A stretch of DNA of 64,000 nt from Mitsuokella multacida DSM 20544 (GTDB taxonomy: Bacteria; Bacillota; Negativicutes; Selenomonadales; Selenomonadaceae): contig NZ_GG697141.2 in assembly GCF_000155955.1 (NCBI RefSeq), forward strand, positions 1,202,588 through 1,266,587. The letters are read 5' to 3'. This document shows, in pieces, positions 3,241 through 61,041 of the stretch; positions within the stretch are counted from its first letter, which is position 1; every line of letters begins with the position of its first letter. The notes under the pieces are model-generated. The model had not been told where the DNA came from. It worked only from the letters and a program-made list of their open reading frames with translations, and did not search any database. Position numbers and translations under genes: made by a program.

Positions 3241-3281
3241 GCGCGGAGGTATGTATTTTGGCTTCGGCGCTCCGCTAAATG
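3241..3281 (-). repeat. fragment of the ~180-nt intergenic repeat (3-prime end only)
   Basis: The reverse complement matches the right end of the family: CATTTAGCGGAGCG, then CGAAGCC, then AAATACATACCTCCGC. The match stops at 3281, exactly where the separate palindrome at 3287-3518 begins. This suggests a decayed copy or one interrupted by the palindrome. Confidence 0.65.
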
Positions 3282-3286
3282 GATTT

Positions 3287-3518
3287 GGATTCTCACGCCC
3301 GCAGGCTGGAGGGGCAGGGCGGGCAACACTGCGCGACGGCGGGCTGCTAAATCGATTTTTTCCCTTTCAATGCATCCTGACAAAAGAGCGAAACGCGCTT
3401 CGCTTGGACGATGCTCTTTTGTCAGGGTCTTGGTGGGGAAAAAATCGATTCTTCACGCAGACCGCCGAACGCTCCGTTTATGCCCACCCTGCCCCTCCAT
3501 GCGGAAGTGACGGTATCC
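3287..3518. repeat. long nested palindrome (cruciform or hairpin element)
   Basis: Three perfect inverted-repeat blocks are nested around one centre. TGGAGGGGCAGGG (3307-3319) pairs with 3487-3499. A 15-bp block at 3350-3364 pairs with 3436-3450. CCTGACAAAAGAGC (3376-3389) pairs with 3413-3426. The apical loop is about 23 nt. Weaker pairing extends outward to GGAT (3287) and ATCC (3518). No open frame in it looks coding. It differs in sequence from the ~180-nt repeat family next to it. It may be a MITE-like element or a structured RNA. Confidence 0.8.
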
Positions 3519-3592
3519 GATTCTCGCGATAGTAAGTTACTGGTATGGCGGTTGCGCAGGCAGTATCGTCTTGCGGCGCTGCTCTGGCGTTC

Positions 3593-3777
3593 GAGCGGAG
3601 GGAGGTATTTCGCCTGCAAGAGCGGAGCGATTTGCCCGAAGGGCTGTGCCCTGACGCGGAGCAGCTTAGCATGCGATGTCGGAACGCCGTGGCAGGCGGC
3701 GAGGTGGCCTCTATGGAAGGCTTGTCATAGGGCACATTCAGCGGAGCGATGAAGCCGAAATATCTCCCTGCGCGCTC
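3593..3777 (+). repeat. ~180-nt intergenic repeat, copy A
   Basis: The element is bounded by imperfect inverted ends (GAGCGGAGGGAGGTATTTCG at left; CGAAATATCTCCC and GCGCTC at right). Core blocks shared with the other copies are CGCCTGCAAGAGCG, AGGGCTGTGCCC, CGCCGTGGCAGGCGGCG and GGGCACATTCAGCGGAGCG. TGTGCCC and GGGCACA inside it are complementary. No frame in it looks coding. This is the most diverged full copy in the window. Confidence 0.8.
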
Positions 3778-10931: not shown

Positions 10932-12440
10932 ATGCCGATATCGGAAAAGAATCTGCTCAAACTCGCCAATGGCAGTGATGTGCGCGGCGTCTCGATTGAG
11001 GGCGTGGCGGACGAGCCGGTGACGCTCAATGCCGAGGCGGCCAACCGCATCACGAGCGGTTTCCTCGACTTCCTTTCGCAGAAGACGGGCAAGAAGGTCA
11101 AGGACCTGCGCATCGCGGTCGGCCACGACTCGCGCCTCTCGGCGCCGATGCTCAAGGAAGCAGTGCTCGAAGCGCTGACGTATGCCGGCGCTGTGACGGT
11201 CGACTGCGGCCTTGCGTCCACGCCGTCGATGTTCATGTCCATCGTCCTCCCCGAGACGAAGATGGACGGCTCTATCATGATCACGGCCAGCCATCTGCCG
11301 TTCAACCGCAACGGCCTCAAGTTCTTCACGAAGGACGGCGGCGTCGAGCATGAGGACATCATCGCCATCCTCGAGGCAGCAGCCCGCAGCCCGGAGGTCA
11401 AGGGCGACCTCGCGAAGGTCCAGAAGTACAACCTCATCGACCGCTACTGCCATCATCTGCGCAAGAAGATCCGCGCAGCGCTCAACATGGGCGACACGCC
11501 GCTCCGCGGCATGCACGTCGTCGTCGACGCCGGCAATGGTGCGGGCGGCTTCTTTGCGACGCAGGTGCTCGGCCGCCTCGGTGCCGACACGTCGGGCAGC
11601 ATCTTCCTCGAGCCGGACGGCCACTTCCCGAACCACATCCCGAACCCGGAGAACAAGCAGGCCATGGCCGCCATCCGCAAGGCCGTGCTCGACAGCCATG
11701 CCGACCTCGGCCTGATCTTCGACACGGATGTCGACCGCATGAGCGCCGTCCTCAAGAACGGCAAGGAGATCAGCCGCAATGCCCTGATTGCCATGATGGC
11801 CGCCATCCTCGCGCCGGATTATCCGGGCAGCACGATCGTCACGGACTCGGTCACGAGCGACGAGCTCACCGAATTCCTGCAGGGCGAGCTCGGCCTGCGC
11901 CACCTGCGCTTCAAGCGCGGCTACAAGAACGTCATCGATGAGTGCATCCGCCTCAACAAAGAAGGCACCGTCTCGCCGCTGGCCATCGAGACGAGCGGCC
12001 ACGGCGCCCTCTCGGAGAACTACTACCTCGATGACGGCGCTTATCTGGCCGTCAAGCTGCTGATTGCCGCCGCCAAGGCAAAGGCACAGGGCCGTCACCT
12101 CGCAGACCTCGTCAAGAAGCTCGGCGAACCAGTCGAGAGCCGCGAATACCGCATGAAGATCATGGGCGAGGACGACTTCCGCAGCTACGGTGCGAACGTC
12201 CTCAAAGTCTTCGAAGAGCGCGCTGCCGAGGCCGGCATCCGCGCGGCCAAGCCGTCGTACGAGGGCGTTCGCCTCGTCTTCCCCGATGGCTGGGCATTGC
12301 TGCGCATGAGCCTGCACGACCCGCAGATGCCGCTCAACATCGAGAGCCGCAAGAAGGGCGGCGTCGCCGAGATCGCCGCGAAAGTCCAGGAATTCCTCAA
12401 GGGCTTCACGAGCCTCGACATGAGCGTCTTCAAGGACTGA
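10932..12440 (+). CDS. phosphomannomutase/phosphoglucomutase family protein
   Basis: 502-residue alpha-D-phosphohexomutase, four-domain fold. The phosphoserine loop reads ITASHLPFNRNGLKFF, where most family members have TASHNP. The metal site reads FDTDVDRMSAV instead of the usual DGDaDR, still with three Asp. Substrate-loop Glu-Ser-type residues appear as IETSGHGALSEN. The ATG at 10932 follows GGGGGG by 7 nt. A TASHLP subfamily also exists in plants and other Firmicutes as I recall. Likely interconverts hexose 1- and 6-phosphates for cell-envelope sugars, but the substrate is uncertain. The upstream spacer repeats part of the OPT operator (TTGTGCACTACA at 10834). Confidence 0.82.
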   Translation: MPISEKNLLKLANGSDVRGVSIEGVADEPVTLNAEAANRITSGFLDFLSQKTGKKVKDLRIAVGHDSRLSAPMLKEAVLEALTYAGAVTVDCGLASTPSMFMSIVLPETKMDGSIMITASHLPFNRNGLKFFTKDGGVEHEDIIAILEAAARSPEVKGDLAKVQKYNLIDRYCHHLRKKIRAALNMGDTPLRGMHVVVDAGNGAGGFFATQVLGRLGADTSGSIFLEPDGHFPNHIPNPENKQAMAAIRKAVLDSHADLGLIFDTDVDRMSAVLKNGKEISRNALIAMMAAILAPDYPGSTIVTDSVTSDELTEFLQGELGLRHLRFKRGYKNVIDECIRLNKEGTVSPLAIETSGHGALSENYYLDDGAYLAVKLLIAAAKAKAQGRHLADLVKKLGEPVESREYRMKIMGEDDFRSYGANVLKVFEERAAEAGIRAAKPSYEGVRLVFPDGWALLRMSLHDPQMPLNIESRKKGGVAEIAAKVQEFLKGFTSLDMSVFKD

Positions 12441-12457
12441 CAACGTCATATCAGCAT

Positions 12458-12495
12458 AAAAAAGCTGCTGCATCCGATGGTGCAGCAGCTTTTTT
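12458..12495 (+). terminator. intrinsic terminator after the phosphohexomutase gene
   Basis: 15-bp A/T-flanked stem AAAAAAGCTGCTGCA / TGCAGCAGCTTTTTT with an 8-nt loop. Confidence 0.92.
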
Positions 12496-12588
12496 CGTAT
12501 GAAGTTCGGGACAGTGTAGGAACGGTAGGCAAAGGGGCGGGGGCCAAGAGGCGGTCTCTCGTGCGGCTCATCTCCGAAGCGTACCTGA

Positions 12589-12772
12589 GAGCGGGGGCAT
12601 GTATTTCGCCTGCAGGAGCGAAGTGACCGCCCGCAGGGCTGCGTCCCACTCCGCTAGTTCCTTGATGTATCGATGTCAAAGCGCCGCGGCAGGCGGCGAA
12701 GCATCTTGAAAGCACAGATGATCTGGGGCTGCATTCAACGGAGCGACGAAGCCGAAATACATGCCCCCGCTC
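12589..12772 (+). repeat. ~180-nt intergenic repeat, copy B
   Basis: Copy with 20-bp perfect terminal inverted repeats: GAGCGGGGGCATGTATTTCG at 12589-12608 and its exact complement at 12753-12772. Interior blocks shared with other copies are CGCCTGCAGGAGCG, GCAGGGCTG, GCGCCGCGGCAGGCGGCGAA and CAACGGAGCGACGAAGC. CTGAG occurs on both outer flanks, starting at 12585 and at 12776, but is offset from the ends, so a target-site duplication is unproven. It fills most of the spacer between the convergent phosphohexomutase and 116-residue genes. Confidence 0.85.
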
Positions 12773-12819
12773 CTTCTGAGATGTAAACACACTTGCCCTC
12801 GTTGCACGTTTCCCTTAAC

Positions 12820-13170
12820 TCATCCCAGTAGCAGATCCCGATGGTCGAGCACGAATTTGCCGTTGGTGCAGGCCGGGCAGAAGCAGGTGTCGCCGCCGGC
12901 GGCTTTGACCTCCTGGCCCTTCTTGAGCATGGCGGCTGCCTGCTCCTCGCCGAAGAGCTCCTTGGCCTTGTCGGAGGCGAAGAACGGCAGGACATCGTCG
13001 ATGCTCTCGACGCACTCGTTCAGTGCGGCGATGAGCTTCTCGGCCTTGGCATTCTCATCCGCCTTGCCGACAGAAGCGAGGTAATCCTTGGCGACGTCCT
13101 TGAGGCCAGCATAGGCGCTCGGCGCGTCGATGACACCCTGTACGTGCTGCAATACTTCTTCTTTCGTCAT
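12820..13170 (-). CDS. small protein with a C-terminal CxCxxC motif, unknown function
   Basis: 116-residue soluble protein. The first 85 residues are helical and charged. Near the C-terminus TCFCPACTNGKFVLDH carries three cysteines in a CxCPxC arrangement that could bind zinc or an Fe-S cluster. The ATG at 13170 is preferred over 13179 because AAAGGA abuts the earlier codon. Similar proteins in Negativicutes have sometimes been labelled Hsp90-like, a label I find unsupported since no Hsp90 motif is visible. Transcribed alone. Confidence 0.6.
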   Translation of the reverse strand: MTKEEVLQHVQGVIDAPSAYAGLKDVAKDYLASVGKADENAKAEKLIAALNECVESIDDVLPFFASDKAKELFGEEQAAAMLKKGQEVKAAGGDTCFCPACTNGKFVLDHRDLLLG

Positions 13171-41936: not shown

Positions 41937-42116
41937 GGCGGGGGTACCTGTTTCGGCTTCGGCGTTCCGTTAATGTGTCCCATGGTACGCCTGCCTTTGA
42001 GGCTGTTTCGCCGCCTGCCGCATCGTTCTGACATCGGCGCGCTAGGGAAGACATCCTTGGGACACAGCCCTGCGGGCAGTCACTGCACGCCTGCAGGCGA
42101 AACAGGTACCCCCGCC
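41937..42116 (-). repeat. ~180-nt intergenic repeat, copy C (inverted)
   Basis: Bounded by perfect 19-bp terminal inverted repeats GGCGGGGGTACCTGTTTCG and complement (42098-42116). Read on the minus strand it shares CGCCTGCAGGCGTGCAG, GCCCGCAGGGCTGTGTCCCA, GCGGCAGGCGGCGAA and TGGGACACATTAACGG with the other copies. The terminal-repeat sequence differs from copies B and D at several positions yet stays fully complementary. Confidence 0.85.
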
Positions 42117-42270
42117 TGTTAGGCATATCAGCAGTGCTTGGCCGGGGCTCGTGTTGGCTGTCTAGATGGAACGCAGCCACTTTTGGCGAAGGGGGAATCG
42201 CACAGTCCCGTCGCTCCGTTTGGGCGAGAACATAGAATTACTCTAGATGTGGATAGCCTGACTTCAGGGG

Positions 42271-42449
42271 CGGGGGGATGTATTCTGCCTGCAGGAGCGC
42301 AGCGATTGCCCAACGGGCTGTGCCCCCAGAAGGACTGGACTTCAGAGATACTATGTTGGAACGCCGCGGCAGGCGGCGAATCGTCATCGAGGTAAGAATG
42401 GTCATGGGGCACATTTAGCGGAGCGACGAAGCCAGAATACATCCCCCCG
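42271..42449 (+). repeat. ~180-nt intergenic repeat, copy D
   Basis: Perfect 17-bp ends CGGGGGGATGTATTCTG (42271-42287) and complement (42433-42449). Interior blocks are GCCTGCAGGAGCGCAGCG, GGGCTGTGCCCC, CGCCGCGGCAGGCGGCG and GGGGCACATTTAGCGGAGCG. It lies head-to-head with copy C, 154 nt away. Confidence 0.85.
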
Positions 42450-42491
42450 ACCGCCACGCAGTATGCCAGAATGCGTTGAAGAAACCCCAGT

Positions 42492-60645: not shown

Positions 60646-61041
60646 TCACCTGCCCTGATTCTCTATGTACTTCCGGATGGTCTCTATAGGAGCACCGCCT
60701 GTTGTCAACAAGCAATAGCTTTTGGACCAGAACATTTCCTTCCACAGCTTGTTCCTGACTTCTGGGAATTCCTTCTTGATCAGTCTTGAGCTGGCACTTT
60801 TGTAGGCGTTGATGAATTTTGACATCTCCGTATTAGGATGAGCACGAAACATGATGTGCACATGATCTTGATCATGGTTCCACTCTTCCAACGTGATGTG
60901 ATACGACGCGCCTATGCGGACGAATATATCCTTTGCGTACTGGCTCATCTGCTCAGAGAATACTTTTCGGCGATACTTCACCACCAGAACCAGATGGTAG
61001 TAGAGCAAGAACACTGAATGATTGTTACTGTCTAAATCCAT
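60646..61041 (-). CDS. tnpA: IS200/IS605 Y1 transposase TnpA
   Basis: 131-residue HUH single-strand transposase. The HUH motif is DHVHIMF, the catalytic Tyr is in IRKYIENQGR near the C-terminus, and LLYYHLVLVVKYRRKVF is the typical N-terminal strand. AAAGGA precedes the ATG. Its stop lies just inside the tnpB start region (GTGA). Intact and normal length. Confidence 0.93.
   Translation of the reverse strand: MDLDSNNHSVFLLYYHLVLVVKYRRKVFSEQMSQYAKDIFVRIGASYHITLEEWNHDQDHVHIMFRAHPNTEMSKFINAYKSASSRLIKKEFPEVRNKLWKEMFWSKSYCLLTTGGAPIETIRKYIENQGR

Follow-up and report, generated by a model that had tools for sequence, protein, structure and literature searches.

A dispersed hairpin repeat of about 180 nt in Mitsuokella and related genera, with structure-keeping changes in place

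Within the window, by which is meant the whole 64,000-nt stretch of the Mitsuokella multacida DSM 20544 genome that was analysed, four full copies of an intergenic module of about 180 nt, here termed A to D, lie at the positions given for them in the original prediction. They are recovered as four strong matches (128-153 bits) to a covariance model, R2, that was built from 35 rows drawn from six genomes and five genera, and of the other four R2 matches in the window, two fall on the opposite strands of C (28.6 bits) and D (24.5 bits) and two score 9.5 bits. The features are listed in order of position.

3265-3520 (limits approximate), minus strand: element II, a second related structured element, head to head with copy A (RNAalifold)
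3594-3774, plus strand: copy A of the ~180-nt module (R2, 133.7 bits), with an enolase gene (plus strand) and a MutS-domain-V gene (minus strand) on either side (Pfam)
12589-12608, plus strand: 5' arm of the outer stem P1 of copy B, a perfect 20-bp complement to 12753-12772
12590-12771, plus strand: copy B of the module (R2, 153.3 bits), 3' of a phosphoglucomutase-domain gene on the plus strand (Pfam)
12640-12647, plus strand: 5' arm of the inner covarying stem P3 of copy B (helix 6 of the 35-row covariation test)
12682-12698, plus strand: central hairpin CGCCG...CGGCG of copy B, in the near-invariant core (own-copy alignment)
12726-12733, plus strand: 3' arm of the inner covarying stem P3 of copy B (helix 6 of the 35-row covariation test)
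12753-12772, plus strand: 3' arm of the outer stem P1 of copy B, pairing perfectly over 20 bp with 12589-12608
41937-42116, minus strand: copy C of the module, left half of a head-to-head pair with D (R2, 138.0 bits)
42117-42268, no strand assigned: centre of the C-D pair, 152 nt, with the 5' ends of the two copies facing (R2 match coordinates)
42269-42451, plus strand: copy D of the module, right half of the head-to-head pair with C (R2, 128.5 bits)

As had been claimed, the terminal arms match without interruption in three copies (20 bp in B, 19 in C, 17 in D); those of copy A, for which no perfect repeat had been proposed, are imperfect, with a longest uninterrupted match of 7 bp. Stem P3 of copy B includes one G-U pair and one mismatch. 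The C/D pair has genes for TrkH and for a Mem_trans permease on either side, both on the plus strand (Pfam). Ahead of copy B, a hairpin followed by a T-run was recognised by eye at 12459-12494, and a terminator scan of positions 12300-13000 around this copy reported none. Element II overlaps the weak R2 match at 3260-3344 on the minus strand (9.5 bits), and is also found beside several other module copies in two Mitsuokella genomes, its head-to-head arrangement in the own genome extending to copies other than A; an alignment of 10 of its copies gave 64 pairs in RNAalifold, 27 of them with more than one Watson-Crick type, and a count of 28 GU versus 9 AC in a structure predicted on the same rows. 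The window further contains an IS200-type Y1 transposase gene at 60646-61041 on the minus strand (PF01797, 5e-44).

Further genomic copies, which the original prediction had led one to expect, are numerous. With copy B as the blastn query, 41 matches were obtained in the own genome, mostly at 69-81% identity with a few short ones above this range, and a covariance model built from 27 own-genome copies (R1) yields 39, comprising 38 of full length (~180-190 nt) and a single 62-nt form that consists of the ends only (L037 700-761; G000:C6:1144699-1144760). The latter, the M. jalaludinii ortholog of which is full length, is probably an internal deletion. When R1 was applied to the genomes of 60 relatives (the own genome included), matches were found in 8, one of them (G046, 24 bits) outside the bacterial family and taken as chance. 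With R2, 35 of the 189 genomes searched from the bacterial family are positive, again with the own genome included, in genera g1, g9, g14, g16, g21 and g27; since 13 candidates were scored per genome, the counts from this survey are lower bounds. Deep scoring with R2 gave 75 matches in G179, 48 in G017, 44 in G177, 20 in G022, 7 in G077, 5 in G028, 2 in G063 and 1 in G015, although these counts may include a few cases in which one module is matched again on its opposite strand, as happens in G001 (M. jalaludinii DSM 13811; the own genome is G000 and the MAG SUG1706 is G002). For G022, R1 gives 15 matches as compared with the 20 of R2, and two relatives within the same genus have 28 and 3 R1 matches.

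No module match was found in the plasmid sequences searched, and IMG/VR, in which the exact 21-base core alone was searched, gave no match to it. The same core does occur in unrelated bacteria, in 6 of 11 stretches, of which four score 14-19 bits with the model and two give nothing; these occurrences are chance. A comparison of the window with Rfam returned only tRNA at the gathering score, while the copy A region gave three matches far below the gathering score (best 19.4 bits), and no description of this repeat family was found in the open-access literature searched; within these sources, the family is indeed one without a known name. A common neighbouring gene was rejected as the source of the modules, as eight loci from eight genomes differ in their neighbours, except for two at hemL. 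A guide-like match between the internal loops and the flanking sequence was also considered, and by eye alone it seemed not to hold in G022.

In order, the fold comprises the outer stem P1 (~20 pairs), short helices with purine-rich loops between them, a GCCC-loop-GGGC hairpin, the inner stem P3, with 8 pairs, and, around GATGTCAGAACGCCGCGGCAGGCGGCGAA, a conserved core. In the alignment of 35 rows from five genera, which was fitted to R1 (own copies only) and is consequently biased towards the modelled structure, although the small number of gaps in P1 limits this bias, 95.7% of the cells are paired as compared with 68.5% in shuffles (sd 0.8). The prediction that changes on one arm are matched on the opposite arm is borne out by this alignment, in which 38 of the 43 pairs have changed on both sides (28.0 in shuffles), and 373 cells are double-changed, where shuffling gives 97.8 and the slid controls give 25-74. 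A covariation score of 0.685 is obtained, in comparison with 0.199 for shuffles and 0.07 to 0.13 when the pairs are slid by 1-3 columns; five measures of covariation were computed, and on each of them all 500 shuffles fall short of the real alignment. Changes on both sides are seen across genera in all 20 pairs of P1 (helix 1) and, in agreement with the claim that an inner pair covaries as well, in all 8 pairs of P3 (helix 6). The proposed central CGCCG/CGGCG hairpin (helix 8) is present, but as evidence of covariation it is weak, because it is near-invariant, and the strong evidence is that of P1 and P3. A total of 39 columns are invariant in the 27 diverged own copies, and these lie mostly outside the variable stems.

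Structure-keeping change is also observed between orthologous copies of two species. Copies of the own genome and of M. jalaludinii were matched by comparison of their flanks together with element-level reciprocal best matches. Of the 28 matches in M. jalaludinii, 25 were used; two of the others overlap an opposite-strand match and the third is truncated at the end of a contig. Synteny and reciprocal best match agree for 11 pairs and disagree for six further reciprocal pairs; the other 22 of the 39 own copies were omitted, including the 62-nt form, which matches by its ends alone. Over the 33 stem pairs per element that the test covers, the 11 syntenic pairs have 32 substitutions at 726 stem positions and 8 Watson-Crick double changes, as compared with 0.62 expected and a maximum of 4 in 5000 permutations, and 358 of 363 stem pairs are formed in the second species (null mean 335, maximum 343). 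Contrary to the fold, one single and one double change lead to a mismatch. Identity in these pairs is 0.91-1.00 in the stems and 0.74-0.94 in the rest of the element. The six non-syntenic pairs have 14 double changes (1.88 expected) and 197 stem pairs that form, where the null reaches at most 181, with identities of 0.77-0.98 in the stems versus 0.78-0.87 elsewhere, two of them being without a higher stem identity. Among the window copies, copy A has an ortholog at the equivalent M. jalaludinii site, with an element identity of 95%, and the ortholog of copy B carries a compensatory change. Covariation above the controls and compensatory change in place both support the original suggestion that selection acts on a folded form.

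The pairing intermediates are distributed asymmetrically between the two strands. In the 17 reciprocal-best pairs, 20 single-step intermediates are G·U and one is A·C (p = 2e-5), and in a looser set of 23 comparisons that covers all modelled pairs the single-step counts are 35 and 10. The corresponding totals are 59 G·U versus 18 A·C for 63 Mitsuokella rows and 61 versus 9 for the 35 rows from five genera, while sliding the pairs of the five-genera set by one column gives 117:96 and 128:126. Such an excess of G·U indicates that it is the element strand, in the orientation drawn, that folds. Covariation and an excess of G·U over A·C, the combination sought for a structured RNA, are thus both present, the excess being weaker when distinct column-and-type events are counted (20 versus 14 in the Mitsuokella rows and 20 versus 9 in the five genera). 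This bias favours RNA, as the more likely form, over a single-stranded DNA that is read by a protein.

The same asymmetry bears on the idea that the covariation is a mutational artefact, in which repair of a palindrome, by template switching or mismatch correction, would copy one arm onto the other and so generate matched changes in the complete absence of selection. Long, near-perfect stems are suitable templates for such a process, and three of the four window copies have arms that match perfectly for 17-20 bp. Mere copying of arms in DNA should, however, produce G·T and A·C alike, where ratios of 20:1 and 61:9 are seen, and the 39 invariant columns of the own copies, being mostly outside the variable stems, likewise count against this explanation, which is considered very improbable.

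In genus g21, modules are found in both orientations within operon spacers (the gene names hemC, cobA, hemL, uvrA and uvrC are our own reading of the translations). The hemC-cobA spacer carries a module in four genomes, in sense in G022 and in antisense in G064, G066 and G073, and the hemL spacer carries one in three, in sense in G063 and in antisense in G064 and G022; between uvrA and uvrC, the module lies in sense in both G022 and G062. The opposite orientations are represented by L111 12229-12403 versus L163, L188 and L197, and by L162 versus L164 and L111 18261-18436. The g21 modules at the two operon spacers have either turned in place or been inserted more than once. On the element strand, the five antisense copies of this genus have 10 G·U versus 2 A·C, and the four sense copies 14 versus 0. 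As the module strand stays folded in both orientations, read-through of the operon is disfavoured as the selected form at these sites.

Independence of the orientation of the host operon would be expected of a multicopy small-RNA family, whose modules would each be transcribed on their own as a regulatory RNA, and the tolerance of G·U, the conserved core and the structure-keeping change in place are in keeping with such a family. It is at odds with the promoter analysis, in which no clear signal was found ahead of the modules in Mitsuokella, G017 or G022: sigma-70-like matches lie upstream of 2 of 64 Mitsuokella modules (3% in shuffled sequence), 0 of 28 in G017 (11%) and 4 of 15 in G022 (19%). 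The distribution is also patchy for a regulatory RNA family, with 35 of 189 genomes positive and counts of 28 versus 3 in the two same-genus relatives, and we judge this explanation to be unlikely.

A different role would be that of a 3'-end element, a mobile repeat since domesticated to stabilise mRNA or to serve as an insulator or roadblock where genes converge. Such a role would agree with the convergent genes that flank copy A and with the downstream neighbours of the modules, which are convergent for 25 of 39 copies in the own genome, 19 of 25 in M. jalaludinii and 20 of 29 in G017, as assigned by a rough codon-based gene caller that erred, by comparison with Pfam, on at least one neighbour strand, namely that of copy B. 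According to the same rough caller, however, 8 of the 15 copies in G022 are flanked on both sides by genes that run on the same strand as the element, and inspection by eye found no T-tract 3' of the stems. We regard a 3'-end role as quite improbable.

All 39 pairs of opposite-strand neighbours less than 600 bp apart are arranged head to head, and none tail to tail. They comprise 26 of 26 in G179 (among 62 of its 75 matches listed), 6 of 6 in the own genome, 2 of 2 in M. jalaludinii and 5 of 5 in G017, with none in G022, the counts being derived from R1 matches except for G179. Same-direction tandems number five in the own genome and three in M. jalaludinii; three-module, one-direction arrays were seen at L026 1487-2115 and L007 1497-2049, with periods of ~223 and 186 nt. 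The pairs in G017 sit in a unit that is bounded by AAATTGCAGTTTG and its complement (13-bp inverted ends), units with such ends are present in G177 as well, and of the 26 G179 pairs the AAATTGCAGTTTG end, with at most one mismatch, is found on both sides in 10 and on at least one side in 21. At the ends of the G017 units no consistent target-site duplication was seen by eye, a common 2-bp repeat being present in 4 of 12. These units (e.g. L081, L082, L085) often start, as judged by eye, directly where the T-run of an intrinsic terminator ends, a pattern that suggests preferred target sites.

Comparison of the two Mitsuokella species illustrates that copies are lost, turned and recombined. The own copies at 636022 and 85567 have exchanged best partners with respect to M. 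jalaludinii, and that at 664837 on the plus strand matches the minus-strand member of a pair, so that one pair has apparently been inverted in place; site exchange or in-place inversion was noted at loci L013/L092, L008/L090 and L002/L096. By our own reading, two pairs at L033 survive as mere remnants in M. jalaludinii, the C/D pair is rearranged in the same species, and the corresponding site in G002 has neither pair nor remnant.

Head-to-head doublets in intergenic positions, and either orientation at one operon site, would suit a DNA-level element, that is a REPIN-like mobile DNA which would have to fold as single-stranded DNA in order to be recognised by an HUH/Y1 (RAYT-like) or other transposase, the covariation then reflecting selection for movement. 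REPIN spacers are reported to show compensatory changes (PMC3116915), and Y1_Tnp (PF01797) matches number 5 in the own genome, one of them inside the window, 14 in M. jalaludinii, 3 in G002 and 10 in G017. Such a mechanism is harder to reconcile with the module-bearing draft genomes G022 (15-20 modules), G028 and G015, in which Y1_Tnp gave no match. Nor is the GTAG/CGTC tag at the 5' foot of the module above expectation, GTAG being present in 4 of 64 Mitsuokella modules (3.8 expected) and CGTC in 1 of 64, with 1 and 0 of 29 in G017 and 1 and 0 of 15 in G022. Furthermore, selection for movement leaves the compensatory change in same-site copies of two species unexplained, and this form of mobile DNA is, on balance, a rather unlikely account of the module.

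A mobilising gene for the module was searched for and not found. A RAYT was rejected as the required mover on account of the carriers G022, G028 and G015, which have no Y1_Tnp match. In G177 the inverted ends enclose, in addition, three units of 2,326 bp that encode an intact DDE transposase of 491 aa (DUF772, DDE_Tnp_1_6). This DDE element was rejected as an autonomous partner because its ends are its own, it shows 9-bp duplications and it interrupts module pairs. Five of its six copies lie at the foot of a hairpin stem and the sixth elsewhere (G177 L241-L246), from which the repeat appears as a landing pad for the DDE element; the latter is present in 1 of 10 genomes tested. Among the paired ends listed for G017, G177 and G179 no other carrier of the 13-bp inverted ends was noticed, and no autonomous transposon with the same terminal inverted repeats, as would befit a classical DDE-transposon MITE.

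The ERIC/RU-1 elements of enterobacteria are intergenic repeats of 100-170 bp that occur in many copies; compared by description, they resemble the module in being multicopy and intergenic and differ from it in taxon. With the REPIN/REP-BIME and RAYT systems (PMC3116915, PMC3733652), the module has in common an intergenic, multicopy distribution, inverted doublets, compensatory hairpin changes and a position 3' of genes, but it is unlike them in its length (~180 nt versus 20-40 bp for REP), in its freely variable outer stem and in having some carriers with no Y1 match. It fails two tested REP features, namely a tagged 20-40-bp palindrome and a Y1 gene in the genome, and the shared inverted doublets and compensatory changes are a resemblance in form that does not prove kinship. 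The BOX, RUP and SPRITE elements of pneumococcus are, according to PMC3049150, long structured repeats of low mobility, some of them expressed, with no known similar IS ends for SPRITE. By description, the module is like them in being long, structured and interspersed, and is set apart by its head-to-head pairs, its freely varying, covarying stem and its occurrence in six genera. Intergenic repeat RNAs of Borrelia (PMC2674063) also show compensatory base-pair changes between orthologs; compared by description, they differ from the module in being plasmid-borne. The insertion of the DDE element into G177 modules recalls ISPpu9, an insertion sequence that lies within REPs, although ISPpu9 belongs to Pseudomonas and its targets are REP repeats (PMC8450116).

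The explanation that we prefer, tentatively and at somewhat short of even chances, is that the module is a new REPIN/BOX-like interspersed hairpin repeat in which one folded strand is selected in place, RNA being a likelier form of that strand than single-stranded DNA. According to this proposal, a dispersed, non-coding module of ~180 nt would fold on one strand into a closed rod, in which the sequence of P1 would be free to vary provided that pairing holds, and which would enclose a core of internal loops, the short hairpin, P3 and the central hairpin. The module would spread in genomes singly, in tandem or head to head, in one genus often inside a ~600-bp unit, and an enzyme acting in trans may move the copies. 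Once inserted, a copy would stay selected for the fold of that strand, the folded form presumably being RNA, and the fold may limit the harm done to the surrounding transcripts or stabilise them. The G·U excess speaks for RNA rather than for single-stranded DNA, and the antisense copies inside operons do not help the RNA reading.

A stronger proposal goes beyond the preferred one, in that the module would constitute a dispersed class of structured RNA extending over several genera, with copies that are separately evolving functional RNA domains, a P1 that drifts but compensates in place, and a partner that reads the conserved core. This proposal is possible but doubtful; if true, it would describe a mobile repeat that delivers functional RNA to dozens of loci.

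In comparison with the known hairpin repeats, this family has a larger module and displays structure-keeping change in place on one strand. The family supplies covariance models for a repeat that was found undescribed in the open-access literature searched. Dispersed hairpin repeats of bacteria are usually judged to be selfish, and whether single copies have a function in place is an old open question. With 11 same-site copies in which compensatory change is accompanied by a strand bias, selection in place becomes testable copy by copy.
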